DNA from: an uncultured Cocleimonas sp. | GTDB lineage: Bacteria; Pseudomonadota; Gammaproteobacteria; Thiotrichales; Thiotrichaceae | NCBI RefSeq assembly: GCF_947495625.1 | Contig: NZ_CANLZW010000036.1 | Coordinates: 1 to 49,152 of the forward strand | Direction of reading: 5' to 3' | DNA: 49,152 nucleotides | In this document: in pieces, positions 1,020 through 47,234 of the stretch | Position numbering within the stretch: the first letter of the stretch is position 1 | Layout: the number at the start of each line of letters is the position of its first letter | The notes under the pieces: generated by a model | What the model saw: only the letters and a program-made list of their open reading frames with translations | Told to the model about the DNA's origin: nothing | Databases searched by the model: none | Translations under genes and position numbers: made by a program

Positions 1020-1048
1020 AAAAAAATGCCTTAAAGTAGGGGGGTGAC
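1020..1048 (-). repeat. Dispersed repeat, copy 2, abutting the psd stop codon
   Basis: A-tract, TGCCTT, then AAAGTAGGGGGGTGAC. It ends against the psd stop codon (1049-1051 on the plus strand), so the psd transcript runs straight into the C-rich strand and then a U-tract. Confidence 0.95.
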
Positions 1049-12315: not shown

Positions 12316-12342
12316 AAAAACCCCTTAAAAGTAGGGGGGTGT
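12316..12342 (-). repeat. Dispersed repeat, copy 5, just 3' of rof
   Basis: A5, CCCCTTAA, then AAGTAGGGGGGTGTG. Read along the rof transcript it gives CCCCT-loop-AGGGG followed by T5, a plausible compact terminator four bases after the rof stop. It also lies between convergent genes. Confidence 0.95.
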
Positions 12343-17018: not shown

Positions 17019-17047
17019 AAAAAACCCCTTAAAAGTAGGGGGGTGTG
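17019..17047 (-). repeat. Dispersed repeat, copy 6
   Basis: A6, CCCCTTAA, then AAGTAGGGGGGTGTG, almost identical to copy 5. The C-rich strand follows the direction of the upstream rplI operon, beyond that operon's own terminator. It lies 90 bases ahead of the DUF3461 start. The rest of 16929-17175 shows nothing else. Confidence 0.95.
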
Positions 17048-19643: not shown

Positions 19644-20757
19644 CGATGTCTCTGAGGATATCAAGATATTGCTTGGTTCAAAAATATCTCAGCTTAGATT
19701 GGTACATTATGACTATTCTACTATAAATCAGCTCAGCGCAGAGCAACTCAAGCAAAAGTTCAAAGAGTTTGATTTAGTGTTCTTTGATAATAAAAAAGAA
19801 TGTAAAAAACGATTTCTGCCCTCTGATAAGTGTCTATATTGGAAAAACCTCTCTGATCTATCTTCGAAAGTTGATGTTTATATGCAATTGCGAAGATGTT
19901 TATCCCTGTTTCCTCTTACTCTAAAGTACTGGGTTCTGGTAGAGGTGCTGCATAATAGCCAGGACTGCATTATCTATCGTGGTGTCAATAAAAAAGGTGA
20001 ATCGGCAGCTATCAAGCGTTTTAAATTCAAACCGAATGAATTATCTGATGAGATGATCCAGAAATTTCTAGAGCGCGTTGAAAAACAATGCGCAATTCGC
20101 TCTGAGGGGTTAGTGCATTTTTATGATGGTGGGATTTGTAATCACGCGTTCTACCTAGTGATGGAGTATTTGCCATTTGGTACATTGAGGCAGGCTTTAA
20201 ATAGTTGTGAGAAAACGCTTCCTTTATTACATGCATTGGAATGGTTTAGAGAAATTACTTCTGCATTAGATTGCGTTCACAAAGCTGGTTTGATTCATCG
20301 TGATTTGAAAATTGATAATGTGATGCTTAGAAGTGATGGCGTGCTTGCGCTGACAGACTATGGTGTATCAAAGAAGATTTTATTAGATGCGGGTTTTTTG
20401 AAAGCTGATGAGCTGCATTGTTCTCCACATTATGTCAGCCCTGAATTAGTTGCTGGAGAAGATTGTACTAAAGCGTCTGATATCTATAGTTTAGGCGTAA
20501 TCTTTTATGAGCTCTTGATGGGAGAGAAGCCCTATGCAGGGAATAGCCCAACAGAGCTCATGATGCAACACGTTATGATGCCTGTGCCAACCTTGAGTAA
20601 ATGCTATTCACACTTGCAGCCAGTTTTGAATAAGATGATGGCGAAATGTCCAGATGACCGATTTTCAAGTCCGGGTAGAGCATTGCAAGCGCTTGATCTG
20701 TCGATGCAACAAGAACCCATCTATCTAAACGAACAATATGCACCCCCCACCTTTTGA
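19612..20757 (+). CDS. Serine/threonine protein kinase with an unassigned N-terminal domain
   Basis: 381 residues. The C-terminal part (about 108-370) is a Hanks-type kinase: AIKRF with the ATP lysine at about 135, catalytic HRDLKIDN (229-236), DYG instead of DFG (249-251), HYVSPELV, and SDIYSLGVIFYELLMGEKPY. The glycine-rich loop is degenerate (EVLHNSQDCIIYRG). Such variants occur in some bacterial kinases. Residues 1-107 form a small alpha/beta domain that looks like a degenerate receiver (AMIQNDD near 10, DLVFFD near 56). No transmembrane helix is visible, so the protein is likely cytosolic. Repeat copy 7 supplies its last codons (APPTF) and the stop. Targets are unknown. Confidence 0.88.
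   Translation: MSLSVAMIQNDDVSEDIKILLGSKISQLRLVHYDYSTINQLSAEQLKQKFKEFDLVFFDNKKECKKRFLPSDKCLYWKNLSDLSSKVDVYMQLRRCLSLFPLTLKYWVLVEVLHNSQDCIIYRGVNKKGESAAIKRFKFKPNELSDEMIQKFLERVEKQCAIRSEGLVHFYDGGICNHAFYLVMEYLPFGTLRQALNSCEKTLPLLHALEWFREITSALDCVHKAGLIHRDLKIDNVMLRSDGVLALTDYGVSKKILLDAGFLKADELHCSPHYVSPELVAGEDCTKASDIYSLGVIFYELLMGEKPYAGNSPTELMMQHVMMPVPTLSKCYSHLQPVLNKMMAKCPDDRFSSPGRALQALDLSMQQEPIYLNEQYAPPTF
20741..20757 (+). repeat. Dispersed repeat, copy 7, forming the kinase C-terminus and stop
   Basis: CACCCCCCACCTTTTGA encodes the last residues PPTF and the TGA. It is the GGT variant seen in copies 3 and 19, and T-rich sequence follows. Confidence 0.85.
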
Positions 20758-20858
20758 ATGACAAATCGTTTTTGTTTTATTAAAACGATATTGGAATTTA
20801 TGCTTTGCGAGGCCTTTTTTATAAAAGCCTTATATAAGATGAGTTTTTGCACTTTGGA

Positions 20859-26634: not shown

Positions 26635-26664
26635 TAAAAAAGTGGCTAAAAGTAGGGGGGTGTC
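26635..26664 (-). repeat. Dispersed repeat, copy 8, between glcD and glcE
   Basis: A6, GTGGCTA, then AAAGTAGGGGGGTGTC. The C-rich strand follows the glc transcript. Read that way it gives TACTTTTAGCC-AC-T6, the same layout as the terminator-like copies, but inside an operon. Confidence 0.95.
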
Positions 26665-30020: not shown

Positions 30021-30036
30021 ATCACCCCCCTACTTA
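30021..30036 (+). repeat. Dispersed repeat, copy 9, 3' of serS
   Basis: ATCACCCCCCTACTTAT on the serS sense strand, directly followed by an independent perfect hairpin at 30037. Confidence 0.93.
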
Positions 30037-30069
30037 TACGAGGTTTTTATTCGTTATGAATAAAAACCT
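30037..30069. terminator. Perfect 14-bp hairpin after serS
   Basis: CGAGGTTTTTATTC pairs fully with GAATAAAAACCTCG around GTTAT. The stem itself contains T5 and A5, so it can work in both directions. It sits immediately after repeat copy 9. Confidence 0.8.
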
Positions 30070-31102: not shown

Positions 31103-31108
31103 CGATAT

Positions 31109-31136
31109 AAAAAAGCCCTTAAAGTAGGGGGGTGAC
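31109..31136 (-). repeat. Dispersed repeat, copy 10, in antisense to its upstream gene
   Basis: A6, GCCCTT, then AAAGTAGGGGGGTGAC, seven bases after the channel gene. Here the G-rich strand is the sense strand of the upstream gene, unlike most copies. No minus-strand gene lies upstream in the C-strand sense. Confidence 0.95.
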
Positions 31137-31226
31137 TAAATTAAACATAAATCATCTGGACAACTACTTGTCCTAACGATCTAATTCTTATTAAATAAGC
31201 GTTAAATAAATAAGGCACTTTTAGCA

Positions 31227-32906
31227 ATGAATGAAAACGAAAAACCACTAAATTTCATCGAAAAAATTATTGAAGAAGATCTCGCTTCTGGAAAAGTTTC
31301 AAGTGTTCAAACACGCTTTCCACCTGAGCCTAACGGTTATTTACATATAGGTCATGCGAAGTCGATTGTTTTGAATTTTGGTCTTGCTGAAAAATACAAC
31401 GGCCAATGTAATCTGCGTTTTGACGATACCAACCCTGAAAAAGAAGAAATCGAATACGTTGATTCGATCAAGCAAGATGTCGAGTGGTTGGGATACAAAT
31501 GGAATGGTGATGTGCATTTCACTTCTGACTATTTTGATCAGCTTTATGACTGGGCGGTTACCTTAATCAAAGAGGGAAAAGCGTATGTCTGCGATCTTAA
31601 TCAGGAAGAGATGCGCGAATACCGTGGTAACTTAAAAGAAGCTGGAAAAGACAGCCCTTATCGAGATCGCAGTGTTGAAGAAAACCTCGATTTGTTAATG
31701 CGTATGCGCGATGGCGAATTTGAAGATGGAAAGCGTTCTTTGCGAGTTAAGATCGATATGGCTCATCCGAATATGCAAATGCGTGACCCTGTTATTTATC
31801 GCATTAAGAATATGGAACATCACCAAACGGGCGACAAGTGGCACATTTATCCATCCTATGATTACGCGCATGGGCAGGGTGATGCAATCGAAGGCGTGAC
31901 ACACTCTGTATGTACCTTGGAGTTTGTTGAGCATCGTCCTTTATACGAATGGTTTATTGAGAATTTGCCGGTTCCGTCTGAGCCTCATCAATATGAGTTT
32001 TCTCGTTTAAATGTGAATTACTCGGTAACCAGTAAGCGTAAATTAAAGCAGTTGGTTGATGAGAATATTGTAAAAGGTTGGGACGATCCTAGAATGCCAA
32101 CGATCTCTGGCATGCGTCGTCGCGGCTTCACCGCCAAATCTATACGAGACTTCGTTGAAAGTACGGGGGTGACTAAAGTCGATGGTGTGGTTGATGTGAG
32201 TCAGCTAGAGTTCTCAGTACGCGAAGATTTAAATAACGTGGCACCGCGTGCCATGTGTGTGATGAATCCATTAAAAGTGACGCTATGGAATGTTCCAGAA
32301 GATATGACGGAATACCTTACTGCGCCTCTACATCCGCAAAATGAAGAGATGGGAACACGTACGTTGATTTTCGATCGTGAAATTTTCATCGACAAGGCGG
32401 ATTTCCAGGAAGAAGGAAATAAGAAATATAAACGTCTAGTGATTGGCAAGCGCGTGCGTTTACGTAATGCATACGTCATAGAAGCCGATGAAGCGATTAA
32501 AGATGGTAATGGCGAAATCATTGAAGTTAAGGCTAGAATTATTGAAGACACGCTGGGTAAGAATCCTGAAGATGGTATTAAGCCAAAAGGAGTTATTCAC
32601 TGGGTGTCTGCATTACAGAATGTAGATTGCGAAGTGCGTATATACGATCGATTGTTTAATGACATCGCGCCAGATGCTGGTGGTAAAGACTTTATGGAAG
32701 CACTCAATCCGAGTAGTCTGGAAGTACTTACGGGCTGTAAGGGTGAAATAAGTTTGATGAATCCGAAGGCAGATGTGCCTTACCAGTTCGAAAGAGAAGG
32801 GTATTTCTTCCTGGATTCAGATTCGGTAATTGATGCTCATGAAGAAAATGAAAAATTAATCTTCAATAAAACAATTGGATTAAGAGATACCTGGGAGAGT
32901 AAGTAA
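31227..32906 (+). CDS. glnS: Glutamine-tRNA ligase
   Basis: 559 residues, full length. Class I signature [17 protein letters not shown] (HIGH) and KRKLKQLV-type KMSKS region ([10 protein letters not shown]). [14 protein letters not shown] and [10 protein letters not shown] mark the C-terminal anticodon-binding barrels. It charges tRNA-Gln. Copy 11 of the repeat is found within the codons for [10 protein letters not shown] bidirectional terminator follows. Confidence 0.99.
32158..32177 (-). repeat. Dispersed repeat core, copy 11, inside glnS
   Basis: AAAGTACGGGGGTGACTAAA differs from the copy 10 sequence by one base in 20. It encodes ESTGVTK, a region conserved in GlnS (GVTK), so the match may be partly chance. 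Confidence 0.6.
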
Positions 32907-32962
32907 CTCCTATGGTCTTCTTGGAGCTGTTAATTCTAATTTAGTATTAACGCCAAAATTAC

Positions 32963-32991
32963 AAAAAAGCCTCGCATTGCGAGGCTTTTTT
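32963..32991. terminator. Bidirectional terminator between glnS and cspA-like gene
   Basis: AAAAAAGCCTCGC and GCGAGGCTTTTTT with a three-base loop; it serves both convergent genes. Confidence 0.95.
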
Positions 32992-33011
32992 GTATGAATG
33001 CTGTAATGCCT

Positions 33012-33215
33012 CTAAGCAGCAGTTACATTAACAGCGGCAGGGCCTTTGGCGCCATCTTCTGTTTCAAAATTCACTTTTTGTCCTTCTTCTAAAGACTTGT
33101 AACCATCCATTTGGATAGAGTTGTAGTGAACAAAAACATCATCACTTCCGTCATCTGGAGCGATAAAACCAAAACCTTTACTACTGTTGAACCACTTAAC
33201 TGTACCTGTAGCCAT
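33012..33215 (-). CDS. Cold-shock protein, CspA family
   Basis: 67 residues. [20 protein letters not shown] with RNP1 (KGFGFI) and RNP2 (VFVHYNSI) is diagnostic of a single cold-shock domain that binds single-stranded [24 protein letters not shown] ends it. It has a long AT-rich leader upstream. Confidence 0.98.
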
Positions 33216-33600
33216 TCCTAAGAACCTCTAAAATATAAAAAATAACGCAGATTTTTAGCAGAAATAAAGTCGATAATATCGACAAAAAAACGGTTACATC
33301 ACTATTTAGAGAAGAAGCCGCTCAACTGCTTCAGGACAAATATTAAATACTTACCCTTAAAAACTACATGAACAGAATATCATAACTACAGAGAATTTCT
33401 ATACTGAGCTCATTTTTTCGAAGGTTATTAGATAAATTATATTGATATGGTTGGCTGTTTAGTTAGGTTGCAACGAAGAAAAGTATAAAAAGTAATCAAA
33501 TAAAGCAGATAAAAATAAAATTAATTAATGGCTTTAGGTTTATTGTTTAAAATTTTCAATATTGCTCTATCAAGTGGATTAGATTCTGCATAAGTGTTTA
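33216..33600. other. Long AT-rich leader/intergenic region upstream of the cold-shock gene
   Basis: 385 bases without a gene. It contains a 15-base palindrome GTCGATA-A-TATCGAC at 33269-33283, 54 bases upstream of the cold-shock start. Long 5' leaders are typical of cold-shock genes. I cannot identify a cold box. Downstream part belongs to the 3' side of the TerB-like gene. Confidence 0.5.
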
Positions 33601-34068
33601 TTAGGAAAGACTAGACTCTTTTTGAATACGTAATTTTGATGCGATAAAGTCGCTGTGAGAAACATGAATCAAATCAGCAATTCGACGAATCACATGGTCT
33701 TCGTGTTTATCTAACACATTATCTGCAAAGGCCACTCGCCAAAGCTTTTCAATTAATTCGATCCGCTGCGTTGCCGAGTAATGTTGATTAATCAAGCTAG
33801 TAAACTGAAAGTTATCGGTGGATTCTGCATGTTCTTGTTTAGCTAAATCAATCAGTTCTTTTGCTTCTTTCTGATCAAGATCAAATGACTCTTCCACCAA
33901 TTTGAGTAGCATTACTCTCTCTTCAGGTGCATTTTCATAATCCGCTTCAGCGACTTCTATCATCAGCGAAGCCAACGCTAATTGTAAGCGATGCTCAGAA
34001 TCAAGCTCTGACGAGCTTGATTCTGCAATGAAATGACTTTCAAAAAATTGTTTTATTTTGGGTAGCAT
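33601..34068 (-). CDS. TerB-like protein
   Basis: 155 residues, mainly helical. LQLALASLMIEVAEADYENA, then EERVMLLKLVEESFDLD and a second half with LWRVAFADNVLDKHEDHVIR, matches the TerB/DjlA-N fold, which carries two repeated acidic motifs thought to bind metal. TerB-family proteins occur with tellurite and stress functions, but a lone copy like this has no assigned role. Lies between hpf and the cold-shock gene. Confidence 0.85.
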   Translation of the reverse strand: MLPKIKQFFESHFIAESSSSELDSEHRLQLALASLMIEVAEADYENAPEERVMLLKLVEESFDLDQKEAKELIDLAKQEHAESTDNFQFTSLINQHYSATQRIELIEKLWRVAFADNVLDKHEDHVIRRIADLIHVSHSDFIASKLRIQKESSLS

Positions 34069-34118
34069 TTTTTAAATTTAAATTCTCTAATAAAATTTCT
34101 ACTTTTTTCTAAGTATTA

Positions 34119-34445
34119 TTAGATTTCAGCAGGTTTACGCGAAAGAGTCTGTCTTTTCTCCATCGCTTTTCTTACCGCGCGTTCTGCACGATGACAGCAA
34201 TTATCAATCGCCGCATATAAATTCTCTTCACTATCCTCGACAACAACCGTCGGCATTTTCTGTAACTCTACATGAATCAGGCAATGTTGTGCTTCTCCGC
34301 CTTTTGGACCATTCTCGTCAGACAAATGAACATGAACATTGATAATTCTATCGCCATAGTTATGAATCATTGGCTCAAGTTTCTCTTCTGTATGAGTTCT
34401 CATTGCTTCTGTTACTGAAAAATTTTGAGATTGAATATCGATCAT
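34119..34445 (-). CDS. hpf: Ribosome hibernation promoting factor (HPF/RaiA family, short form)
   Basis: 108 residues. IDIQSQNFSVTEAMRTHTEE, then VHVHLSDENGPKGGEAQHC and LYAAIDNCCHRAERAVRK, fits the short HPF. It binds the 30S decoding site and promotes 100S dimers in stationary phase. Close upstream of the TerB-like gene, maybe one unit. Confidence 0.93.
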   Translation of the reverse strand: MIDIQSQNFSVTEAMRTHTEEKLEPMIHNYGDRIINVHVHLSDENGPKGGEAQHCLIHVELQKMPTVVVEDSEENLYAAIDNCCHRAERAVRKAMEKRQTLSRKPAEI

Positions 34446-34625
34446 TCTTTATTATCCTCTTGATAGGTCTTTCGTTATTTTTGAAGTTCTCGTGTGTAGT
34501 TTGTGAATAAAATATTCCCTACAATTTAACTATAGTTTCAGAAATCGTAAATTCAAGCCAATTGATTGTTAAAAAGTAGAATATTTTACTAGCATCATGG
34601 AGCAGTTTTTATTATCCTACGCGCT

Positions 34626-34656
34626 CTTTGAAGTTTATCGACTAAAAACTTCAAAG
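34626..34656. repeat. Perfect 11-bp inverted repeat just before the tRNA-Ser gene
   Basis: CTTTGAAGTTT (34626-34636) and AAACTTCAAAG (34646-34656) around a nine-base spacer, ending 11 bases before the tRNA. It is in the tRNA promoter/leader zone. Confidence 0.6.
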
Positions 34657-34667
34657 AATACAACAAT

Positions 34668-34757
34668 GGAGAGGTGACTGAGTGGCCGAAAGTACCGGTT
34701 TTGAAAACCGGCGACGGGTTAAACCGTCCCAGGGTTCGAATCCCTGCCTCTCCGCCA
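34668..34757 (+). tRNA. tRNA-Ser(UGA)
   Basis: 90 bases, with a seven-bp acceptor (GGAGAGG/CCTCTCC) and encoded CCA. The anticodon stem CCGGT/ACCGG holds the loop TTTGAAA with anticodon TGA at 34702-34704. A long variable arm, then GGTTCGAATCC T-arm, is class II as in tRNA-Ser. Confidence 0.98.
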
Positions 34758-34763
34758 TATTAC

Positions 34764-34803
34764 AAAAAGCCCGCTAGCGTTTTCGCGCTAGCGGGCTTTT
34801 TTT
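34764..34803 (+). terminator. Terminator of tRNA-Ser
   Basis: GCCCGCTAGCG and CGCTAGCGGGC, 11 bp, closing TTTTCG, then T7. Confidence 0.97.
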
Positions 34804-34846
34804 ATTCTGTTTGCGAGAGTAGGTATGAGAACCCTGATCGGTTTGG

Positions 34847-35008
34847 CTAAAATATTAGGAATATTTTAGAACGAGCGAAAGCGAGCCCGAAGGGTCGGGT
34901 ACATGGACGTACCCGATAAAACATTGCGCTCAAGCAATGTTAGATGTCAGAGGAACGACGACGGTCCTGAGGAACGAAGGATTAAGAATCGCCCTAAGCG
35001 ATTCTTAA
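34847..35008. repeat. Multi-hairpin element downstream of tRNA-Ser
   Basis: Four perfect hairpins in 162 bases. CTAAAATATT (34847) pairs with AATATTTTAG (ends 34869). TCGGGTAC (34895-34902) pairs with GTACCCGA (34909-34916). AACATTGC (34920-34927) pairs with GCAATGTT (34934-34941). TTAAGAATCGC (34982-34992) pairs with GCGATTCTTAA (34998-35008). A GAGGAACGA direct repeat sits between the last two. GC is higher than the surroundings. It has no ORF and looks like a MITE/REP-like or palindromic genomic element. Confidence 0.7.
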
Positions 35009-35059
35009 CAATCCCGCCCAAATCTATAGCTTACAGTTGGAGTATTTCCAAAGCGCTCT

Positions 35060-35088
35060 AAAAAAGTGCCTATAAGTAGGGGGGTGAT
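35060..35088 (-). repeat. Dispersed repeat, copy 12
   Basis: A6, GTGCCTAT, then AAGTAGGGGGGTGATC. The C-rich strand follows the small minus-strand gene at 35116. Read in that sense, CCTA-CTTA-TAGG forms a four-bp hairpin before a T6 run. Confidence 0.95.
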
Positions 35089-35115
35089 CCTTACTTTCTC
35101 AGAATTCGAATAGAA

Positions 35116-35310
35116 TCATTTACTAAAAATAACTTCATTCTCATTTCTTTTTGCAGTAATTCCAGTCATTTCAAATGTGTGTTCATTACCATCATCAAGA
35201 ACTGCCAATTGTTCAGGGCCGCAAGTTATTTTAAAACCTTTGATAACACCGCAATGTATATTTCCCAATTTTTCATAGTAACCTTCTCTTACTTCTACGT
35301 TTTCTGACAT
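35116..35310 (-). CDS. Small conserved-looking hypothetical protein
   Basis: 64 residues, acidic, no membrane segment. The sequence (REGYYEKLGNIHCGVIKGFK, then EHTFEMTGITAKRNENEVIF) looks like a small beta-rich fold. I do not recognise it. A ribosome site (AAAGGAAAAAGA) lies upstream. Repeat copies 12 and 13 flank it. Confidence 0.6.
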   Translation of the reverse strand: MSENVEVREGYYEKLGNIHCGVIKGFKITCGPEQLAVLDDGNEHTFEMTGITAKRNENEVIFSK

Positions 35311-35415
35311 TTCTTTTTCCTTTTGATAATTAATTGTTAAAGTATGTGACTAATGTAGTACTAATCTTGAATGGTGGTACAGGTCTATTTTCTTATCTCA
35401 GTTGGTTGGTCTTGT

Positions 35416-35444
35416 AAAAAACTGGCTATAAGTAGGGGGGTGAT
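35416..35444 (-). repeat. Dispersed repeat, copy 13
   Basis: A6, CTGGCTAT, then AAGTAGGGGGGTGATA. It is very similar to copy 12, 355 bases away and in the same orientation. Confidence 0.95.
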
Positions 35445-35501
35445 AGTAAATTTGTTTTTATGACTGAGTTTTTTACTCTCAGGGCGCAGTACAAAGTACC
35501 G

Positions 35502-35606
35502 TTATTTTCGTTCTTTATCCTTTAAGTCTTTTTCACGTTTCGCTTTTAATATAAAGGCTATTACCGTTACAAAGATAAATGCGGCTAATACGTATATGTA
35601 TTCCAT
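35502..35606 (-). CDS. Very small single-helix membrane protein (34 residues)
   Basis: MEYIYVLAAFIFVTVIAFIL then a charged tail KAKREKDLKDKERK: one transmembrane helix and a strongly basic cytosolic tail, the usual shape of bacterial small membrane proteins. It lies between umuC and repeat copy 13 on the minus strand. The ribosome site is weak (AGGAC about 20 bases upstream), so expression is uncertain. Confidence 0.45.
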   Translation of the reverse strand: MEYIYVLAAFIFVTVIAFILKAKREKDLKDKERK

Positions 35607-35702
35607 GTCGTTATGTAGTTTTGTCCTAAATCTTATTTACACTAACTATAGTTGAATATGCTTAATTTGTTTAACGATGCTTTTCCATGCTAGATCTATA
35701 AG

Positions 35703-36956
35703 TCATTCAACTCTCAGCAACTCATCCCAGCACGTTGTGTATTTAGGGGATAATAGATTCTGATTCATATACCAGCGCTTCTTGCTTTCAGAGCCTAGCC
35801 TTAAGGTTTGTCTGCCATATTTACTATTCACATGATCCATGAGTTTCATGCGCTGGCGCGCGTTGCTGTCGTATTTTTCGGGTTGGAATAAACACAGTTG
35901 CTGTTTGCTGTCGGGGATAATGTCTAGAATCATGATGCCCCCTTTTTGATATTCGTAGCCGTCTTTGTAAATGTTCTCCAGAATATAGGTTGCCATCTTG
36001 ATAAACGTGGCAGTGTCTGCAGAATATTGGTTTAGGCTTACTGTTCCTGCATTGCTGTATTTCGGGCTAGCATTGAACGGGCTGGTGCGAATGAATACCT
36101 GAATGCTGCTGGCGACGCTGTGTTGTTTTCTAAGCTTTTCACACGCTCTGGCGACATAGCCGGAGATTAGCGAGCGTAACAGTTGATAGTTGGTGATTTT
36201 GTTTTTAAAGCTACGAGAAACGAGTAGTTGTTTCTTTTCCGGTAGTTCCTCGATAGAAATGCAATTTTCACCGTTTAGTTCACGTTGCGTGCGTTGCATA
36301 ACCACGCTGTATTTTCGTCGGATCCAGGTGCTATCTGCTTGTGCCAAATCGTAGGCAGAATGAATACCACAATGCTGGAGGCTCATCGACCATTTTCGTC
36401 CTATGCCCCAGACATCACCAATCGCTATTTTTTTAAGTACATTGTCTATTTGTTGCTGGTTATCAAAAACAAACACCCCCCCACTTTTAGGCGTTTTTTT
36501 TGCCACGCGATTGGCAATCTTCGACAGCGTTTTGGTGCTACCAAAACCAATCGATACTGGCATTCCGATCCATTTGAGTATTTTCTCTCTAACCTCCAAA
36601 CCGTGGGTGTTTAAATCGAAATGATTAAAACCACGCATATCGGCAAAGGCTTCATCGATTGAGTAGATTTCGATATTGGGTGACAGGTATTCCAATACGC
36701 TCATAACGCGTGCAGATAAATCACCGTAGAGTGGGTAGTTAGAAGAAAATACATGAATACCTTTCTGCTTCATTTCTTGTCGAAATTTAAATTCTGGCGC
36801 ACCCATGGGGATACCCAGCGCCTTTGCCTCGTTACTTCGGGCAATCACACAGCCATCATTATTCGATAACACCACAATCGGTTGGTCTTCTAACTCTGGC
36901 CTGAACAATCGCTCGCAGGAGGCATAAAAGTTATTGCAGTCGACAATAGCAAACAT
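35703..36956 (-). CDS. umuC: DNA polymerase V catalytic subunit UmuC
   Basis: 417 residues. Y-family translesion polymerase. FAIVDCNNFYASCERLF gives the first acidic metal ligand; YSIDEAFADM the second pair. WGIGRKWSMSL and the little-finger domain follow. It works with processed UmuD in the SOS response. Codons 153-161 (KKTPKSGGV) coincide with repeat copy 14, in a place where homologues vary but often read KK-P-GGV-like, so the reading frame stays intact. UmuD lies 13 bases upstream. Confidence 0.96.
   Translation of the reverse strand: MFAIVDCNNFYASCERLFRPELEDQPIVVLSNNDGCVIARSNEAKALGIPMGAPEFKFRQEMKQKGIHVFSSNYPLYGDLSARVMSVLEYLSPNIEIYSIDEAFADMRGFNHFDLNTHGLEVREKILKWIGMPVSIGFGSTKTLSKIANRVAKKTPKSGGVFVFDNQQQIDNVLKKIAIGDVWGIGRKWSMSLQHCGIHSAYDLAQADSTWIRRKYSVVMQRTQRELNGENCISIEELPEKKQLLVSRSFKNKITNYQLLRSLISGYVARACEKLRKQHSVASSIQVFIRTSPFNASPKYSNAGTVSLNQYSADTATFIKMATYILENIYKDGYEYQKGGIMILDIIPDSKQQLCLFQPEKYDSNARQRMKLMDHVNSKYGRQTLRLGSESKKRWYMNQNLLSPKYTTCWDELLRVE
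36473..36500 (+). repeat. Dispersed repeat, copy 14, within umuC
   Basis: On the umuC sense strand A7, CGCCTA, then AAAGTGGGGGGGTG. G7 arises by A-to-G change in TAGGGGGG. It uses the same variant as copy 4, the other coding copy. Confidence 0.85.
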
Positions 36957-36969
36957 GATTTATACCGAA

Positions 36970-37401
36970 CTAATATTGATGAATGGTCGCGGTGACCACG
37001 CCCCACACATGCAACTCTCCATGCACGGGAATGTCTTTATGATGCTTGCTTTCCGCTTTTAATAAAATGCCATTGGGGTGGTTGGTAATGAGGCGTTTCA
37101 CCGTGGTTTCGCCATCAATCACCGCGATGATAATATCCCTATTGGATGCTTCAAGAGAGCGATCAACGATCAAAATATCATTTGGGTAAATACCGACGTT
37201 AACCATCGAACGCCCAACAACACGCACAAAAAAGGTCGCCTCCTGATGTTTAATGAGCAACTTGTTGAGGTCCAGGTATTCCTCGATAAAATCATCTGCA
37301 GGCGAGGCAAAACCTGCGCGTACTTTATTGCCATAGAGTGGAATCATTACAGGTTTGGCAGATGGGCTTAATCGCTTTATTTCTATTATTTCGTTTGTCA
37401 T
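36970..37401 (-). CDS. umuD: DNA polymerase V accessory protein UmuD (LexA-like self-cleaving)
   Basis: 143 residues. Cleavage site Ala29-Gly30 in KVRAGFASPADDFIEEYLDL; catalytic Ser65 (VVGRSMVNVGIYPND) and Lys102 (TTVKRL) are in place. RecA-stimulated self-cleavage makes the active UmuD'. Heads the umuDC operon. A GTTC-N7-GTTC box 37 bases upstream may be its LexA-type operator. Confidence 0.95.
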   Translation of the reverse strand: MTNEIIEIKRLSPSAKPVMIPLYGNKVRAGFASPADDFIEEYLDLNKLLIKHQEATFFVRVVGRSMVNVGIYPNDILIVDRSLEASNRDIIIAVIDGETTVKRLITNHPNGILLKAESKHHKDIPVHGELHVWGVVTATIHQY

Positions 37402-37437
37402 AGTAAAAATAAGCTTAGCAGAAAATAATCAAAAAGC

Positions 37438-37452
37438 GAACAAAAAGCGAAC
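37438..37452 (-). promoter_or_regulatory. GTTC-N7-GTTC direct repeat upstream of umuDC (possible LexA box)
   Basis: On the umuD strand: GTTC-GCTTTTT-GTTC. It is part of an 11-bp tandem repeat, AAAAAGCGAAC twice. GTTCN7GTTC is the known LexA operator of alphaproteobacteria, whereas gammaproteobacteria usually use CTGT-N8-ACAG, which I do not see here. Position fits an SOS operator for umuDC. Confidence 0.45.
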
Positions 37453-37468
37453 TTATTTTAAGTTTTTC

Positions 37469-37481
37469 GGGGGGGGGGGGG
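37469..37481. repeat. Homopolymer of 13 G between umuD and the LysR gene
   Basis: An uninterrupted G13 followed by GCGA repeats (CGAGCGAGCG). Located about 68 bases upstream of umuD and 116 bases upstream of the LysR gene. Such tracts are slippage-prone. Confidence 0.85.
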
Positions 37482-37596
37482 CGAGCGAGCGTTCTCGAAA
37501 TTCCCTCACTAATATAGAAATCAACTATTGAATAAAAAAGGATAAATGCCGATAATTGCAAATAATTATTCTCGTATTTAGAACAATAGGTAATGC

Positions 37597-38499
37597 ATGG
37601 GTCAATTAGAAGATATGGAAGCTTTTGTGCGAGTTGTCGAGGCGGGTGGAATAGGTGCAGCCGCAGAACAAATGGGCATTGCAAAGTCAGCCGTTAGCCG
37701 AAGATTGTCAGAACTAGAAGCGCGTTTGGGTGTCACGCTGATTAATCGCACAACGCGCACTCAAAAACTGAGTGATACCGGAGAACACTATTACTCACGT
37801 GCATTGCAAATTCTCAATGAAATGAGCGAGCTCAATAATATAACGTCAAACCCGGAATGTGATTTAAAAGGTACGATACGGATCTCAGCGCCATTGTCAT
37901 TTGGCTTAACCCACTTATCCCCCGCACTTGACAGCTTTTTCAAAGAACACCCTCAACTAACGCTGGATATAGACTTTACAGATAATCATATTGATCTGAT
38001 TGGTGGAGGCTATGACCTGGCATTTCGTATCGGTGATCTAAATGATTCGAGTTTAAAAGCGCGACGTTTGTTTCCTGTTAGCTTTGCATTGTGTGCAAGC
38101 CCAAAGTACCTGGAAGAACATGGCACACCCAAAGACCACGAAGATTTAAAAAATCATCAAGTGCTCAGGTATTCATTGGCGAGCAACACCACGTTGACAC
38201 TGGTTGATAAAGATCAGCAGAAGCATCATGTCGCCACCAAGGGAAATATAATTGCGAATAATGGGGATTTTCTCTCCTTTATGGCAGCCGCTGGCCACGG
38301 GATTCTTTTTACCCCGACCTTTATTTCATGGGAGTCATTAGCTGTTGGTGATTTAGTGCCCATTTTACAAGACTATTCATTACCAAAGATGAATGCCTAT
38401 GCGGTCTACCCACAATCTCGAACCCTTTCTCGTCGTACCCGTTTATTAATCGACTTTTTGGTTGAACGCTTTGGTGATAAGCCTTATTGGGACCAGTAA
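37597..38499 (+). CDS. LysR-family transcriptional regulator
   Basis: 300 residues. Winged helix-turn-helix (about 1-60): MEAFVRVVEAGGIGAAAEQM then GIAKSAVSRRLSELEARLGV. A substrate-binding domain follows. LNRTTR-type linker (INRTTRTQKLSDTGEHYYSR) is typical. Member of the large LysR subgroup that often controls an adjacent operon, but the divergent neighbour umuD is unlikely to be its target. Copy 15/16 of the repeat forms the terminator. Confidence 0.94.
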   Translation: MGQLEDMEAFVRVVEAGGIGAAAEQMGIAKSAVSRRLSELEARLGVTLINRTTRTQKLSDTGEHYYSRALQILNEMSELNNITSNPECDLKGTIRISAPLSFGLTHLSPALDSFFKEHPQLTLDIDFTDNHIDLIGGGYDLAFRIGDLNDSSLKARRLFPVSFALCASPKYLEEHGTPKDHEDLKNHQVLRYSLASNTTLTLVDKDQQKHHVATKGNIIANNGDFLSFMAAAGHGILFTPTFISWESLAVGDLVPILQDYSLPKMNAYAVYPQSRTLSRRTRLLIDFLVERFGDKPYWDQ

Positions 38500-38526
38500 G
38501 GTATTTATAGATATATCTTAATAACT

Positions 38527-38590
38527 AAAAAAACGTCTATAAGTAAGGGAGGATTTAAAAAAGTACCCTCCTACTTATAGGCCTTTTTTT
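38527..38590. repeat. Inverted pair of dispersed repeats, copies 15 and 16
   Basis: Left copy: A7, CGTCTATAAGTAAGGGAGG. Right copy: CCCTCCTACTTATAGG-CC-T7. CTATAAGTA (38537-38545) pairs with TACTTATAG (38572-38580), and the flanking A and T runs add to it. It lies exactly between convergent genes and is thus a bidirectional terminator made from two repeats. The cores are variants: AAGTAAGGGAGG on the left and AAGTAGGAGGG on the right. Confidence 0.9.
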
Positions 38591-38597
38591 AATGAGC

Positions 38598-40196
38598 TTA
38601 GAAAAATCGTTGTAAGCCTCTATATTTAGGTGCTTTTGCAGGTGGTTGATTAAGGTGTTCTTTTATTCCCCAGCAACCATAAAACTGGCAAGTACGTGGT
38701 GCGGAGAACGCTACAAACAATCCACCTTCGGTAATTCTGTCCCAGTTTTGTAGAAATTCAATATAGAATTTTTCCATTGGGTGCGCTCGGTTTGCACCAA
38801 TCAGGAATGGATTGGGATGATCTTTAGTTGATTTGGTTCCAGGAGCTGTGAGGTGCTGTCCGCCTTCATAAGCAGCGAGTTTGACGCCGTATTTTTTCGC
38901 TAAATCCATTTGTACTTGAATCATCTTGTAGACGTTATTCATCGAATACGGATTTTTCTTATCATCTTTTAGCAGGGCAAAAACACTCGGTACGCTATTT
39001 ACACCTGAAAGTGCTTTTTGGTGAACAAAGAAGTAAGGCGCTATCGCCATCACATCAACATTTTTATACGCGCCTTTATGCTCCATCACCACGGGTGTCA
39101 TGTAACGATTTGCCGACCACGCTCCCATGACTCTGACAATACGATTACTGCTCGAATTACCAAATACCTGCTGGAATATTTTGAAGATTTCTACAGAGCG
39201 CTGTGAGTAGTATTTTTGTCCGGCGACATTAGGGTCAGGATCTAGACGCAGTTTTGTCCCCATATCTTTAGCATAATGCATTTGCGAAAATCCGGGGTTC
39301 CAGGCTTCGTTGGTGTATTCAATATATGCTTTCAGGTTAGGTCGCAGGTGTTTCTTTACATAAGATGCATACTTCCTGACGAGATTATTATCCGCGGCGT
39401 GTGGGATATTGAACCAGGGGTCTCGGTTGAGCACATTCGCCAGTTTAACCATTACCGATAAAGGCGTACCACGTGTACCTTCATAGCCTGCCCAAGTGGC
39501 TTTGCTGATGTGGGGCATTTGCTTCCAGTGTTTGATCGGGTTGCGAGTGATGCCGGACATATTCATCATTCGAATGACTTTAAAATCCTTCATGAATCTT
39601 AAGTAATCAGGGTTGAAGATGATTTTTTTGTGATGCTTTTCAAACGATAGGAAATTGCCACGGCATTGGTTTGCATTGTTAACACGTGTAAAGGGATCGT
39701 TTGCGCAAATACCACCGGGCATGATCACTCGAATATTACGCACATAATTATTAGGTTCGGAGCGCTTTATTAATAATGAGACCTGCATGAATTTGTCATG
39801 GCCAGAGCGAAATTCAACGATGTCTTTGCCGGGTGAAGAGTGAACAATTTTAGCATCACCTTCGTAAGCCAGTTGGCCTTCGCCATCATAAAGAACCGTA
39901 TAATTTCCTTCTGGTAACGTTCCGGCAGGTAGCCAATGAATCATATAGCTGCCTGCCTTTCCGCCTTTTAAGTCAACTGGCCATCCATCACGATCGTATT
40001 GAATATGTCCATGAGTAAGTTTTTTGGCGTCTTTAAACGGCATCGCCATTTTGAACACATTGACAAACGGAGCGCTCGAATCAACGTGTTGGATTTCATT
40101 GGTGTTCATGCCGACGGGTAATTTGGCAAGCGTTGTGTTGCACAGCAAAACAGATAGTGTAGCTAGCAGTGTGTTAATCAATCCTTTGATATTCAC
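38598..40196 (-). CDS. Secreted glycoside-hydrolase-like (TIM-barrel clan A-type) protein
   Basis: 532 residues. A signal peptide (about 1-24, NTTLAK) precedes an N-terminal beta-rich region and a TIM-barrel-like domain. DPWFNIPHAADNNLVRKYAS leads to IEYTNEAWN, where Glu297 fits the acid/base of clan A hydrolases. KLAAYEGGQHL carries Glu444 as the likely nucleophile. The family occurs as 'cellulose-binding' or uncharacterised secreted proteins. Substrate unknown; a beta-linked polysaccharide is likely. Single gene. A 14-bp palindrome lies upstream. Confidence 0.75.
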   Translation of the reverse strand: MNIKGLINTLLATLSVLLCNTTLAKLPVGMNTNEIQHVDSSAPFVNVFKMAMPFKDAKKLTHGHIQYDRDGWPVDLKGGKAGSYMIHWLPAGTLPEGNYTVLYDGEGQLAYEGDAKIVHSSPGKDIVEFRSGHDKFMQVSLLIKRSEPNNYVRNIRVIMPGGICANDPFTRVNNANQCRGNFLSFEKHHKKIIFNPDYLRFMKDFKVIRMMNMSGITRNPIKHWKQMPHISKATWAGYEGTRGTPLSVMVKLANVLNRDPWFNIPHAADNNLVRKYASYVKKHLRPNLKAYIEYTNEAWNPGFSQMHYAKDMGTKLRLDPDPNVAGQKYYSQRSVEIFKIFQQVFGNSSSNRIVRVMGAWSANRYMTPVVMEHKGAYKNVDVMAIAPYFFVHQKALSGVNSVPSVFALLKDDKKNPYSMNNVYKMIQVQMDLAKKYGVKLAAYEGGQHLTAPGTKSTKDHPNPFLIGANRAHPMEKFYIEFLQNWDRITEGGLFVAFSAPRTCQFYGCWGIKEHLNQPPAKAPKYRGLQRFF

Positions 40197-40280
40197 GCTT
40201 TCCCCTTTTTGTTGATGTATTTTTTATCAGTATTTTATTTGCAGTATAGTGTTTAGTTTTGTTTTTAATAAAAAGGTTCT

Positions 40281-40294
40281 ATTTCGGCCGAAAT
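40281..40294. promoter_or_regulatory. 14-bp palindrome upstream of the glycoside-hydrolase-like gene
   Basis: ATTTCGGCCGAAAT, perfect, 85-98 bases upstream of the start. It is a possible regulator site, or part of the der terminator region. Confidence 0.4.
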
Positions 40295-40298
40295 AAAA

Positions 40299-40333
40299 AA
40301 CCCGCCGTATTAGGATTAGTTAATAGGCGGGTT
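40299..40333 (-). terminator. Terminator after der
   Basis: AACCCGCC and GGCGGGTT with inner TATTA/TAATA pairing; on the minus strand it runs into T6. It follows the der stop by ten bases. Confidence 0.93.
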
Positions 40334-40343
40334 ATGGATCTTC

Positions 40344-41795
40344 TTATTTTTTCTTTTTACTGGTTTTATTTGTTTTTGATGTGTGAGGACTATTCTTCCT
40401 TTTACGGAACATCTGAGAAGGAGAAAGTTTGGCGCGCTTATCGCCTCGTCCTTCAAATGGATTATCGCCCGTTTTGAATTCTATTTTTACCTGAGTACCT
40501 TTTAGCTTCAACGTTTCACGGAAGTAATTCATCAAATAACGTTTGTAAGAACCAGGTATGCGATTAGTCTGATTACCATGAATAATCACGGTGAATGGGT
40601 TACTGCCACCCTGATGGGCATAACGAAGCTTGATACGACGTGTCGCTACTATCGGAAGTTGATGCGCTTCGGTCGCTGTTTGTAGAATTCGAGTCATGCG
40701 AGCTGTGGGTACGTCAAGCATTGCAGAATCATACGCTTCGTGGACTGATTTATATAAATGCCCAACACCTGTGCCGTGAAGCGCAGAGATGAAGTGTTTA
40801 TCGGCAAAATCAAGGAAGGGTAGTTTTACTTCTAATTTAACTTTGATTTGATCTTTGGCGTACTCGTCCAGACCATCCCATTTATTGATCGCAACAACCA
40901 AAGAACGACCTGCATCAAGAATCAATCCTAGCAAGTGCGCATCCTGATCAGTAATCGTTTCATGTGCATCTAACAACATAATGACGACATGTGCCTGTTT
41001 GATCGCTTCTAAGGTTTTTATAATACTAAAGGTTTCAATCGCCTCTTTTACTTTACCGCGACGACGTACCCCAGCAGTATCGATCAAGGTATATTTTTTA
41101 CCATCACGTTCATAAGGAACGTAAATACTGTCGCGTGTGGTGCCAGGCTTATCAAACGCCACAACGCGTTCTTCACCCATAATTCGATTGATAAGTGTTG
41201 ATTTTCCAACATTCGGACGACCAACAAATGCAATGCGAATACTGTCTGCATGCTCTTCGGGAATCGTCTCTTCTTCTTCAAACGGAAAGCTTTCAAGCAG
41301 CTTTTCGATCATGGAGGTAACGCCACGACCATGCGCAGCTGCTATGGCGAATACATCTTTAAAACCCAGTTGATAGAAATCAGCTTTAGCTTGTTCCGGA
41401 TCAACCGCATCGGTTTTATTGACTACCAGGTAAACTGTTTTGCCCGCTTTACGTAATCTATCTGCGACTAAATGATCTGCAGGGGTAAGTCCTTCTCTAC
41501 CATCCACCATAAATAAAACGGTATTGGCTTCATCAACCGCCAACCAGGTCTGGTTCGCCATGTATTCATCGATACCCGCGTCATCGCCACTCAAACCGCC
41601 AGTATCAATGACGAGATAATCGCGTTCTTTACCACCCATGTCATCATCAGTGCCAAGTACTCCTTGACCGTATTTACGATCACGGGTCAAACCAGGAAAA
41701 TCAGCCACCAATGCATCTCGCGATTTGGTTAAGCGATTAAATAAAGTGGATTTACCGACATTTGGTCGGCCAACAAGGGCGAATACAGGTTTCAT
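40344..41795 (-). CDS. der: Ribosome biogenesis GTPase Der (EngA)
   Basis: 483 residues. Two tandem GTPase domains: [14 protein letters not shown] near the start and [14 protein letters not shown] near 200, each with DTAG/DTGG ([16 protein letters not shown]) and NKXD (NKTD, NKWD). A C-terminal KH-like domain and a basic tail follow. Needed for 50S assembly. Divergent from glnD. No terminator-like element lies upstream. Confidence 0.98.
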
Positions 41796-41996
41796 AGCGA
41801 TATTTGTAACAGATTTATAGCAAAGTAGTACTAAAGTTTAAAGCATCAATGCTGTAATCAAAACTCAATAGTTATAGCCGCGCAAGGATAACAAATTGCG
41901 CTGTAATAAGGTATTTATTCAGTGTTTATTCGTCATTATTTGCTATTTAATTCATTCATTATTGGGTAAAAACTAGGTATTTATAGTGATAGCTAC

Positions 41997-42024
41997 AAAA
42001 AACCGCCTAAAAGTAGGGGGGTGT
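41997..42024 (-). repeat. Dispersed repeat, copy 17, in the divergent der/glnD region
   Basis: A6, CCGCCTA, then AAAGTAGGGGGGTGTA, 36 bases ahead of glnD. Not 3' of any gene: the C-rich strand points toward der's 5' side. An exception to the 3' rule. Confidence 0.95.
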
Positions 42025-42059
42025 ATTTAAGTTATCCCTAATTCGTGCATAATCCCATC

Positions 42060-44732
42060 ATGACTTCTACTCCTTCTCTTAAAGAAACCTTACAACTCAA
42101 TAATCAACAATTGCAGCAGCAATTTGAAGATGGGGTTGCGATTCAAGATATTCTCAAACAACGCAGCCAGACTATTGATGGATTATTGCAATCGATGTGG
42201 TCTCAGCAAAACAATGATAATCCCGATGATAGACTTGCGGCTGCTTTAGTAGCTGTAGGTGGTTATGGCAGAGAGGAAATGCATCCGGCTTCCGATGTCG
42301 ATTTATTGGTATTGCTGGCTGATGAGCCGAGTTCAGAAGATGAAGCAAAGCTTTCTGACTTTGTTACTCAATTATGGGACCTAGGTCTGGAAATTGGACA
42401 TAGCGTGCGCACTCTGGATGAGTGTGTCACTGAAGCTACGGAAGATTTAACGGTGATTACCAACCTTATTGAGTCGCGTTTTCTTTGCGGTGATGAGGAT
42501 GTCTTTAATCAACTTAAAGACCTCATCGCTGTTGATAAAATGTGGAGTAGCGAAGAATTCTTTAAGGCGAAAATCAAAGAGCAGGAAGACCGCTACCTTC
42601 GTTATGGCGATACTGCTTATCGTGTGGAACCCAATTTAAAAGATGGTCCTGGCGGTTTGCGCGACTTGCAAACCATAGGTTGGATAGCATTGCGTGAATA
42701 TGGTATTGGCTCATTGAAGACGTTGAGTGATGCTAAAGATAACGATTTATTAAATCCTAAAGAATATGAAACTTTAATTGAGGCGCGTGATTTTTTATGG
42801 AAAGTACGTTTTGCCTTACATCAGATAACGGGTAGAAAAGAAGACCGGTTGCTATTCGATCACCAGCGAGACCTTGCGCATAGTTTTGGCTATACCAATG
42901 ATGAGCACAATGAGTCGATCGAAGCATTCATGCAGCGCTATTACAAAACCATCACGCAGCTTGAGCGTCTTAATGAAATTTTACTCGGCTTACTTAGACA
43001 GCGTATTTTATTAGCCAATCAGGCTGAACCTGTATCTATTAACAATTATTATAGCAATCAGGATGGCTATCTGGATTTGGTGCAAAAAGATATATTCAGC
43101 GAACAGCCCCATACAATTCTGGAAGTTTTCAATATATTACAAACCGTACCGAACTTAAAAGGCTTAACACCTTCCACGATTCGCGAACTACGACGTAATT
43201 TGCACTTAGTGGATCAGGATTTTCGTGATAATCCGCATAATAAACAAATGTTTATCAATATTGTTTCGGCTAACCACAGGGTGAATTTTGTTTTAAGGCG
43301 CATGAATCGCTATGGTGTTCTCGCTGCCTATATTCCTGCTTTTGGTAATATTGTAGGCCGTATGCAATACGATCTTTTCCATGCATACACAGTTGATGAT
43401 CACACCTTGAATGTGGTGCGAAATATTCGTGTTTTGAGCATTGAAAAAGGCGCAAAAGAGCTACCTTTTTGTCATGAGCTTTTCAAGCATATAGAGAAAC
43501 CAATGCTGCTTGTTCTGGCAGGTATCTTCCACGATATTGCAAAGGGTAGAGGTGGAAGTCACTCCGAATTAGGAGCTGTTGATGCGCTTGAATTCTGTCG
43601 ATCACACAGTCTTAGCGAAGAAGATTCTCAACTGGTTAGTTGGTTGGTAGAAAATCATTTGCTGATTAGCAGTATCGCACAACGTAAAGATATTAATGAT
43701 CCTGAAGTAATCAAAGAGTTTGTAGAAGTAGTAGGCACTTTGGAAAGACTGGAATATCTACACATTTTAACTATTAGTGATATCAAAGGAACAAACCCAA
43801 CCTTATTAACAAGTTGGAAACATTCTTTGCTAATCGAGTTATTTAAGAATACACGTAAATACCTACAAAACGACGTAGTTAAAACAGCAAGTAATGAAGA
43901 TATAATAGAGCGAGAAATACAGAGCAAAAAACAAGCGGTACTTGCCAAAGTTGAAAAAAATGGCATGGATAGAGCTAATTGTGAGCGCTTCTGGCAGCGT
44001 TTTGATGATGATTACTTTGTTCAGTTCTCAGGAGAAAGACTGTTCTGGCATATTCAGGAAATTGCGGAAAACAAAAATATTTTAAATGTCAGGGTTAGCC
44101 CATTACAAACATCAAAAGAGCAACTAACAGGAAACCCTGAAGAAGAAATCATAAAAATTGCAGACAGTAATATTACCAAAAGCTCTGTTTTACTTATTTA
44201 CACAAGAGATAGGGAAGGATTGTTTGGAAAAATCACGTCGGCAATTGAGCAGCATCGCCTGAATACAGTGGGAGCGAGTATTACATCCACCAATGATGGT
44301 TATGATCTGTTTACTTTTTATCTGCTGGATAATGACGGTAAACCATTACAAAGTTATGACGACAAAGAAAAGTTATTGAACACCATTAAAAAGAATTTAT
44401 CACAACAGCAACCCTCTTATAATTTTGATCATCATAGAATGCCACGACAACTAAAGCACTTCGAAACTAAAACATCAGTAGAATTTAGTATTAATGAGAA
44501 TCACCAACAGACAGAAATTGTGATTATTACAGCAGATGGCGCTGGAATTTTAACCAGGATTAGTGAAGTTTTTACCCAGTACGGAATCAATATACATAAT
44601 GCGCGAATTTCTACCTTGGGTGAAATTGCGGAAGATATTTTCCTTGTAACCACTAACAGTGGAAAGCCTGTTACTTCAAGTGAAAAACAGGCTGAACTGG
44701 AAGCGGCGTTGATACAGAAACTAGATTCTTAA
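42060..44732 (+). CDS. glnD: Bifunctional uridylyltransferase/uridylyl-removing enzyme GlnD
   Basis: About 890 residues. It adds or removes UMP on PII proteins to report glutamine. Nucleotidyltransferase motif GGYGREEMHPASDVDLL; HD motif HDIAKGRGGSHSELGA; two C-terminal ACT domains (LLIYTRDREGLFGKITS and IITADGAGILTRISEVF). Possible starts: ATG 42060 or GTG 42045; no clear ribosome site for either. Repeat copy 17 lies right upstream. Confidence 0.97.
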   Translation: MTSTPSLKETLQLNNQQLQQQFEDGVAIQDILKQRSQTIDGLLQSMWSQQNNDNPDDRLAAALVAVGGYGREEMHPASDVDLLVLLADEPSSEDEAKLSDFVTQLWDLGLEIGHSVRTLDECVTEATEDLTVITNLIESRFLCGDEDVFNQLKDLIAVDKMWSSEEFFKAKIKEQEDRYLRYGDTAYRVEPNLKDGPGGLRDLQTIGWIALREYGIGSLKTLSDAKDNDLLNPKEYETLIEARDFLWKVRFALHQITGRKEDRLLFDHQRDLAHSFGYTNDEHNESIEAFMQRYYKTITQLERLNEILLGLLRQRILLANQAEPVSINNYYSNQDGYLDLVQKDIFSEQPHTILEVFNILQTVPNLKGLTPSTIRELRRNLHLVDQDFRDNPHNKQMFINIVSANHRVNFVLRRMNRYGVLAAYIPAFGNIVGRMQYDLFHAYTVDDHTLNVVRNIRVLSIEKGAKELPFCHELFKHIEKPMLLVLAGIFHDIAKGRGGSHSELGAVDALEFCRSHSLSEEDSQLVSWLVENHLLISSIAQRKDINDPEVIKEFVEVVGTLERLEYLHILTISDIKGTNPTLLTSWKHSLLIELFKNTRKYLQNDVVKTASNEDIIEREIQSKKQAVLAKVEKNGMDRANCERFWQRFDDDYFVQFSGERLFWHIQEIAENKNILNVRVSPLQTSKEQLTGNPEEEIIKIADSNITKSSVLLIYTRDREGLFGKITSAIEQHRLNTVGASITSTNDGYDLFTFYLLDNDGKPLQSYDDKEKLLNTIKKNLSQQQPSYNFDHHRMPRQLKHFETKTSVEFSINENHQQTEIVIITADGAGILTRISEVFTQYGINIHNARISTLGEIAEDIFLVTTNSGKPVTSSEKQAELEAALIQKLDS

Positions 44733-44761
44733 ATTCTAGATTACTGAAAGTAATGTAATCT

Positions 44762-45340: not shown

Positions 45341-45560
45341 TGCTCATTCTCTCAAATCATTTTATTTTTATTTTTAAGAGCGTTTTATTGGGGTGTTCTT
45401 TGTGCCAATTCTATGCGAATTATGCAAAACTCAACGCTCTTTCACCTAAAAAATAGACAATTATCTATCTTATTTCAAGGATTTTACGCCTAACGGCTGA
45501 GCCTAAGCTGAATGAGAGCAATTTTAACGATAATTTTAAGCTATTATTTTGAATAAGTTA

Positions 45561-47229: not shown

Positions 47230-47234
47230 GCATT

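Follow-up and report, generated by a model that had tools for sequence, protein, structure and literature searches.

Genes and repeat copies at the locus

The window, i.e., the whole stretch of 49,152 nucleotides analyzed here, belongs to contig 36 in a Cocleimonas genome of 4.60 Mb. Two of its ORFs, 37597-38499 on the forward and 38598-40196 on the reverse strand, converge on a short gap that contains two facing repeat copies. The initial annotation described the flanking genes as convergent LysR and glycoside-hydrolase-like genes. Convergence and the LysR assignment are borne out by the ORF calls and by HTH_1 and LysR_substrate domains, while the glycoside-hydrolase label found no backing: the 532-aa ORF has no Pfam or NCBIfam family at an E cut-off of 0.001 and no PDB sequence match at E 1. 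At a loose cut-off, Pectate_lyase_4 alone appears (E 0.072), which is under the curated cut-off of that family. The features of the locus are as follows.

37597..38499, + strand: LysR-family regulator (HTH_1 8.6e-19, LysR_substrate 2.5e-39)
38527..38590: hairpin of the head-to-head pair, probable bidirectional terminator (RNA fold of both strands)
38527..38552, + strand: left copy, G-oriented (A7, arm CGT plus CTATAAGTA, altered core A plus GGGAGG)
38527-38533: A7 of the left copy, read directly
38534-38545: left arm CGT plus CTATAAGTA, the latter at 38537-38545
38546-38552: altered left core A plus GGGAGG, the latter at 38547-38552
38553..38565: spacer of 13 nt, within the loop
38566..38590, - strand: right copy, C-oriented (altered core CCCTCC, arm TACTTATAG, GCC, T7)
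38566-38571: altered right core CCCTCC, GGAGGG on the opposite strand
38572-38580: right arm TACTTATAG, followed by GCC
38584-38590: T7 of the right copy, read directly
38598..40196, - strand: 532-aa ORF without family match (ORF call; Pfam, NCBIfam and PDB searches)

Direct reading gives the order A7-CGT-CTATAAGTA-A-GGGAGG-13 nt-CCCTCC-TACTTATAG-GCC-T7 and confirms what had been noticed before, namely two copies facing each other at a distance of 13 nt, A7 and T7 at the outer ends, perfectly complementary 9-base arms, and cores altered in both copies to GGGAGG and GGAGGG on the same-strand reading. As RNA, 38527-38590 has a folding energy of -22.7 kcal/mol for the + strand (z -4.46) and of -22.8 kcal/mol for the - strand (z -4.02). 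Not one of 200 shuffles per strand was as stable, which rules out a chance origin of the hairpin.

Both strands have the form of a terminator, a stable hairpin followed by a U tract; on the + strand the T7 starts 3 nt past the 9-bp arm and 1 nt past the extended stem. The bidirectional terminator of the initial annotation thus stands as far as hairpin, T tracts and convergent genes are concerned, and termination itself is plausible from the form. Judged by form and position, the hairpin probably serves both genes as a bidirectional terminator. A simple terminator scan of 30000-49152 does not report the pair because it admits loops of 3-8 nt and T tails starting 0-2 nt after the stem; its 16 sites compare with a shuffle mean of 15.0, so that the scan yields no excess over shuffled sequence. 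Rfam matches across the window are confined to cspA and one tRNA.

A modular repeat family

Both halves of the pair belong to a repeat family, in the following called the G6 repeat. The window genome (4,603,868 bases) contains 777 instances of the exact core, AAGTAGGGGGGTG, and none of the reversed control, so that a chance origin of the core is ruled out. Elsewhere in the genus, there are 721 exact cores in C. flava (G003), 453 in G004, 388 in G011, 232 in G008, and 74 in G007, followed by two each in G001 and G010, one in G009, and none in G002, G005, and G006; several of the genomes, including G004, G007, G008, G009, G010, and G011, are drafts or incomplete, and G012 and G017 contributed little sequence to the repeat comparison. 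The exact core is absent from 45 genomes of other genera. In a further search, 36 of 62 stretches among the matches listed belong to C. flava, and the others are scattered over unrelated organisms. A literature search, outside of which most subscription journals lay, returned no paper containing AAGTAGGGGGGTG as letters and none joining 'Thiotrichales' with 'interspersed repeat'; GTAGGGGGG does occur as letters, but none of the titles listed deals with such a repeat.

In the consensus of 168 exact copies, A5 occupies positions -12 to -8 and is followed by an arm conserved in part, AAGTAGGGGGGTG, and A/T-C-T/C-T. A short form of about 30 bp is composed of A5, a variable arm of 7-8 nt, and AAGTAGGGGGGTGAC. 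In a long form, which reaches about 85 nt, arm and core are separated by a hairpin module of about 55 nt. Module seeds were found in the context of an element in 29 of 40 cases in a 969-kb sample of the window genome, 16 of them with the exact core, which occurs 184 times in all in the same 969 kb. One copy (L014) carries two modules in tandem. The G6 repeat thus has an optional and repeatable internal module between its end modules, a BOX-like architecture. Further hairpin modules (GAGACAACAACTTTGTTTTTTAAAGTTG and similar) were seen in long forms at L145 (~60-175) and L009 (~7050-7125), indicating a wider modular repertoire. Besides the head-to-head pair, the window contains the following copies.

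1021..1046, +: single copy, exact core
12316..12341, +: single copy, exact core; C. flava copy at the same place and in the same orientation
17020..17045, +: single copy, exact core, common to C. flava
20741..20820 (outer bounds approximate), -: long-form copy, arm and module GCATAAATTC...TCATTC, variant core AAGGTGGGGGGTG
26637..26662, +: single copy, exact core, common to C. flava
30023..30048, -: single copy, exact core, common to C. flava
31109..31134, +: single copy, exact core, common to C. flava
35061..35086, +: single copy, exact core
35417..35442, +: single copy, exact core
41998..42023, +: single copy, exact core, common to C. flava

Two more sites of the window deserve mention. A copy with the core AAGTGGGGGGGTG at 36463-36499 lies within the called ORF 35703-36956, with surroundings 96-97% identical in C. 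flava; this copy may be coding, or the ORF may be wrongly called. Short tandem repeats of 21 nt occupy 12003-12282 within ORF 11404-12297.

Copies are nearly confined to the gaps between genes: 191 of 200 in the 969-kb sample lie outside ORFs and nine inside, where a copy means a core with at least five G and ORFs were called by a simple longest-ORF rule (coding fraction 0.87). The density of single copies is highest in convergent gaps (2.65/kb), followed by co-directional (1.30) and divergent ones (0.75). Single copies do not have the form found in the pair. Their C strand folds at a mean of -1.6 kcal/mol, versus -1.3 with the arm letters shuffled (142 copies), and in co-directional gaps their G strand agrees with the genes in 45 cases and opposes them in 49. 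Both results led us to reject single copies as terminators.

Inverted pairs and conservation of the core

According to the initial annotation, the altered cores of the window pair suggested that selection for pairing had relaxed the core, a link that in its own terms would not survive exact cores in other inverted pairs of the genome. The G-first (head-to-head) pattern AAGTANGGN{6,36}CCNTACTT matches at 16 places genome-wide (control 4), 13 of which have G runs of at least five on both sides. Fifteen other G-first pairs were compared with the window pair, 13 from this pattern (eight in convergent and five in co-directional gaps) and two wider-spaced ones, L011 and L130, from the sampled part. 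The exact core is preserved on both sides in nine of the 15 and on at least one side in all of them. The window pair is the only G-first pair found with both sides altered; the genome-wide pattern would miss pairs with strongly altered cores, and core-blind searches (TAAGTA/TACTTA arms genome-wide; the 969-kb sample) found no second pair of this kind.

In canonical head-to-head pairs, G6 stands opposite C6 in the stem. Therefore, pairing should preserve the core, and loss of the core weakens pairing. Six canonical pairs fold at -29.5 to -54.9 kcal/mol, and the window pair has the weakest fold of the seven compared (-22.7 kcal/mol), its stretch being shorter (64 nt versus 76-81 nt). The suggested connection of pairing with core loss is wrong: other pairs keep the core and canonical folds are stronger, so that pairing was rejected as the cause. 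Cores are altered in single copies, too. Among 11 copies that are exact in C. flava and have both flanks placeable in the window genome, two are altered in the latter.

C-first (tail-to-tail) pairs are commoner than head-to-head pairs, with 35 places (control 3). Of 15 such pairs read over their whole length, 11 have two exact cores, and no U tract follows the hairpin of tail-to-tail pairs. Their partner arms are alike at 5.89 of 8 positions versus 4.73 with shuffled partners, a value reached in none of 20000 shuffles (18 pairs). For head-to-head pairs, the likeness is weak (4.85 versus 4.22, p 0.031; 13 pairs); this test used 13 of 18 rows, after removal of two rows from the window (its head-to-head pair and one half site), the half site L028, L011, and L130. 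Matching partner arms in both kinds of pairs, together with the perfect 9-bp arms, A7/T7 and convergent genes of the window pair, would suit a bidirectional terminator dedicated to that task, whose core had been released from its ordinary function by selection for pairing. We consider this very doubtful, as the other G-first pairs keep their cores and pair G6 with C6, and the commoner class of pairs is largely exact on both sides and lacks the U tract.

Orientation with respect to replication

For strand counts, the leading strand was inferred from GC skew, using stretches with |skew| > 0.02 of the 969-kb sample. The G strand of single copies is leading in 129 and lagging in 19 cases (129/148, 87%). 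Genes of the same sample give a ratio of 450:341 (450/791, 57%) and coding runs of at least five G one of 147:93. In view of the nearly even agreement with co-directional genes reported above, the leading-strand orientation is independent of gene direction. C. flava behaves alike, with 85:15 single copies after removal of overlaps and 40:5 in stretches not chosen by motif, and shows long domains of a single polarity with a flip on contig 2. The bias is weaker in the G002 sample (23:9) and in G007 (15:7, not significant). A repeat found on the leading strand at 85-87% in two species, where genes reach 57%, needs either a copying machinery tied to one of the replication strands or selection for polarity.

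Selection for polarity would be expected if the repeat were a polar chromosome signal of the AIMS or FtsK-orienting type, kept on the leading strand because a protein reads its G strand to sense which way replication or segregation proceeds. The strand counts and polarity domains fit such a signal, as do the conservation of the core at sites shared with C. flava (see below) and the bias of shorter parts after masking of the full motif, AGTAGGG at 40:7 and GTAGGGG at 23:3, a mask that leaves variant copies in. However, GGGNAGGG, the E. coli FtsK signal, shows a skew of its own in the window genome (18:2), so that the usual signal may already serve. Confinement to gene gaps, modules, lengths up to about 85 nt, dialects, and inverted pairs do not suit such a signal either, and AIMS are defined as 8-bp sequences in the available part of PMC5993296. 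We grant this explanation a real, though minor, chance.

A strand bias would also arise if the repeat were REP-like and mobilised by a Y1 transposase of the RAYT type whose substrate is single-stranded DNA of the lagging strand. The window genome has four PF01797 matches, one of them with an internal stop. No match was found in C. flava, G004, G007, G008, and G011 (the genomes of G004, G008, and G011 being 80-89% complete), i.e., in five of the six genomes with at least 74 exact cores. Unlike REP sequences with their RAYT partner, the repeat is thus found in carriers where this search detected no Y1 transposase; such an enzyme is unlikely as a general mobiliser, and the explanation is hardly tenable.

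Conservation in C. flava and dialects within the genus

Among 241 copies of the window genome whose flanks were long enough, 18 had both flanks placeable in C. flava, and 17 of these copies are common to both species in the same orientation. Identity at the 17 shared copies amounts to 0.87 in the A-tract, 0.79 in the arm, and 0.96 in the core, for which the search itself had selected, versus 0.72-0.75 in the flanks; with these values, the idea of an arm hypervariable between species was dropped. No clean empty site was found among the 18 comparable places. The shared sites speak for a slow turnover of the family. At two places (window 20753 and L020 2707), a long form in the window genome corresponds to a short form in C. 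flava, which at window 20753 has the same variant core AAGGTGGGGGGTG. At another site (L020, G000:C2:80001-100000, 4039-5803; L093 1438), one C. flava copy corresponds to two direct copies about 1.75 kb apart in the window genome; the upstream flank matches one copy and the downstream flank the other, as if a segment had been gained or lost.

Several members of the genus carry dialects of the repeat. G002 and G009, where the core is absent or nearly so, contain 395 and 128 exact copies of the 12-mer AGGGGGGATGGG, which in G002 sits within AAAAATATATAAAAAACAGGGGGGATGGGT. The window genome and C. flava lack this 12-mer, and none of the 45 genomes from other genera contains it more than twice. 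A 51-kb sample of G010 includes ten copies of ACAAATCATCGAAAAA.AGGGGGGGTGG or near forms, and in G007 (100-kb sample) the dialect reads AAAAGT, G6-7, TGTACTTTT. In the sample of G001 (74 kb), two or three look-alikes were seen, and no dialect was found in those of G005 (68 kb) and G006 (86 kb). Inverted pairs are present in G002, G009, and G010 as well. A second frequent repeat of AGAGGACAGA-type runs was noticed in the G002 sample (L170-L183), often directly behind the G6 dialect.

Hundreds of genus-limited copies, dialects, and inverted pairs between genes could point to a DNA-uptake-type sequence spread by biased uptake, with inverted pairs as terminators as in Neisseriaceae; dialects and inverted pairs are also reported for DUS in the available part of PMC3630211. 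The same text calls intragenic DUS common, whereas nine of 200 copies lie in ORFs here. Strong over-representation with dialects is thus shared with DUS, and frequency within genes is not. Neither the modules nor the 30-bp unit suits an uptake sequence, and a strand bias would be without reason in the uptake of double-stranded DNA. This explanation appears distinctly improbable. The dialects (AAGTAGGGGGGTGAC; AAAAACAGGGGGGATGGGT; GAAAAACAGGGGGGGTGGGTA; AAAAGT G6-7 TGTACTTTT) could also be read as those of a new kind of replication-polarity element, modular, located between genes, read by a protein and kept on the leading strand irrespective of transcription, which would have diverged along with its partner protein; we regard this reading as unlikely on the whole. 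In any case, dialects within one genus, together with C. flava as a named and deposited strain, offer a natural series for finding the machinery or a reader protein.

Origin of the window pair

In C. flava, the surroundings of the pair are distributed over three contigs. Window 35722-37455 matches the interior of contig 3, 37516-38496 with the LysR gene that of contig 4, and 38547-46316 that of contig 1. A run of 13 G at 37469 lies next to the point where the homology changes from contig 3 to contig 4. The LysR gene of C. flava has an exact single copy, AAAAAAACGCCTCAAAGTAGGGGGGTG, behind it, and behind the counterpart of the second gene there is a right copy with the exact core, CACCCCCCTACTTATAGGCCTTTTTTT, whose left-hand partner, AACTAGAGGGGTG, is altered and resembles the long form. 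By eye, C. flava, G011, and G004 share a neighbour beside the second gene that differs from the one in the window. Therefore, the LysR junction of the window looks derived. The BLAST match to C. flava begins at 38547, within the left core, so the junction seems to pass through the left copy. On the right, the core is exact in C. flava and altered in the window.

From this comparison, we infer that the window pair is rearranged and decayed, the junction having arisen at a repeat and the cores having decayed rather than been selected. A chromosome rearrangement at the repeat would have brought the copy of the LysR gene up to that of the neighbouring gene. Both cores would then have decayed while the arms can still pair, and the resulting hairpin would now end transcription in both directions.

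Two further ideas were set aside. The left arm of the window pair could have been homogenised (TAT like the right arm, CAA in C. flava), but TAT arms are common. As to rearrangement hot spots in general, synteny breaks lie at most 70 bp from an own copy in 11 of 40 cases versus 0.206 expected for random intergenic positions, no clear excess. In G002, which lacks this core, the corresponding 3' end has an ordinary bidirectional terminator by eye, A6 / GCCACAG-CTGTGGC / T6.

Nature of the repeat

Taken together, the feature is likely to be a head-to-head pair of a modular Cocleimonas repeat, rearranged and decayed, of an element that is copied with a replication-strand preference and occasionally provides a terminator. 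The repeat itself would most likely be a non-autonomous element, copied by a putative machinery with this preference, best tolerated behind genes, and two facing copies may now and then serve as a terminator. The window pair is an ordinary outcome in that facing repeat copies can make a terminator; the family matters more.

Comparison with known systems

The window pair resembles intrinsic bidirectional terminators in its hairpin, which a T tract follows on each strand, and in its location between convergent genes. This form is limited to head-to-head pairs, and single copies do not fold in this way. The AIMS of PMC5993296, in its available part, resemble the G6 repeat in their preference for the leading strand, which for the repeat was derived from GC skew; they are 8-mers, whereas the repeat is a modular element of 30-85 nt between genes. 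The DUS of Neisseriaceae (PMC3630211, available part) and Pasteurellaceae have in common with it a high copy number, restriction to a genus or family, dialects, and terminator-linked inverted pairs. In contrast to what is described there, the G6 repeat is longer, modular, nearly confined to gene gaps, and strongly oriented with respect to replication.

The nearest described kind are the BOX, RUP, and SPRITE repeats of Streptococcus pneumoniae, as far as the available part of PMC3049150 describes them. All three are small interspersed repeats and more frequent than expected between convergent genes; the internal module of BOX varies in number, and SPRITE is terminator-like and near gene 3' ends. 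An unsystematic search found no terminal inverted repeats and target duplications of the BOX type in the G6 repeat. According to the same source, 61-63% of BOX, RUP, and SPRITE copies are on the leading strand, which its authors regard as a mirror of the coding bias. The G6 repeat is unrelated to them in sequence, reaches 87% where genes reach 57%, and has dialects between species. The G6 family belongs to the small interspersed repeats as a new variant that is of interest for its replication orientation and its dialects.
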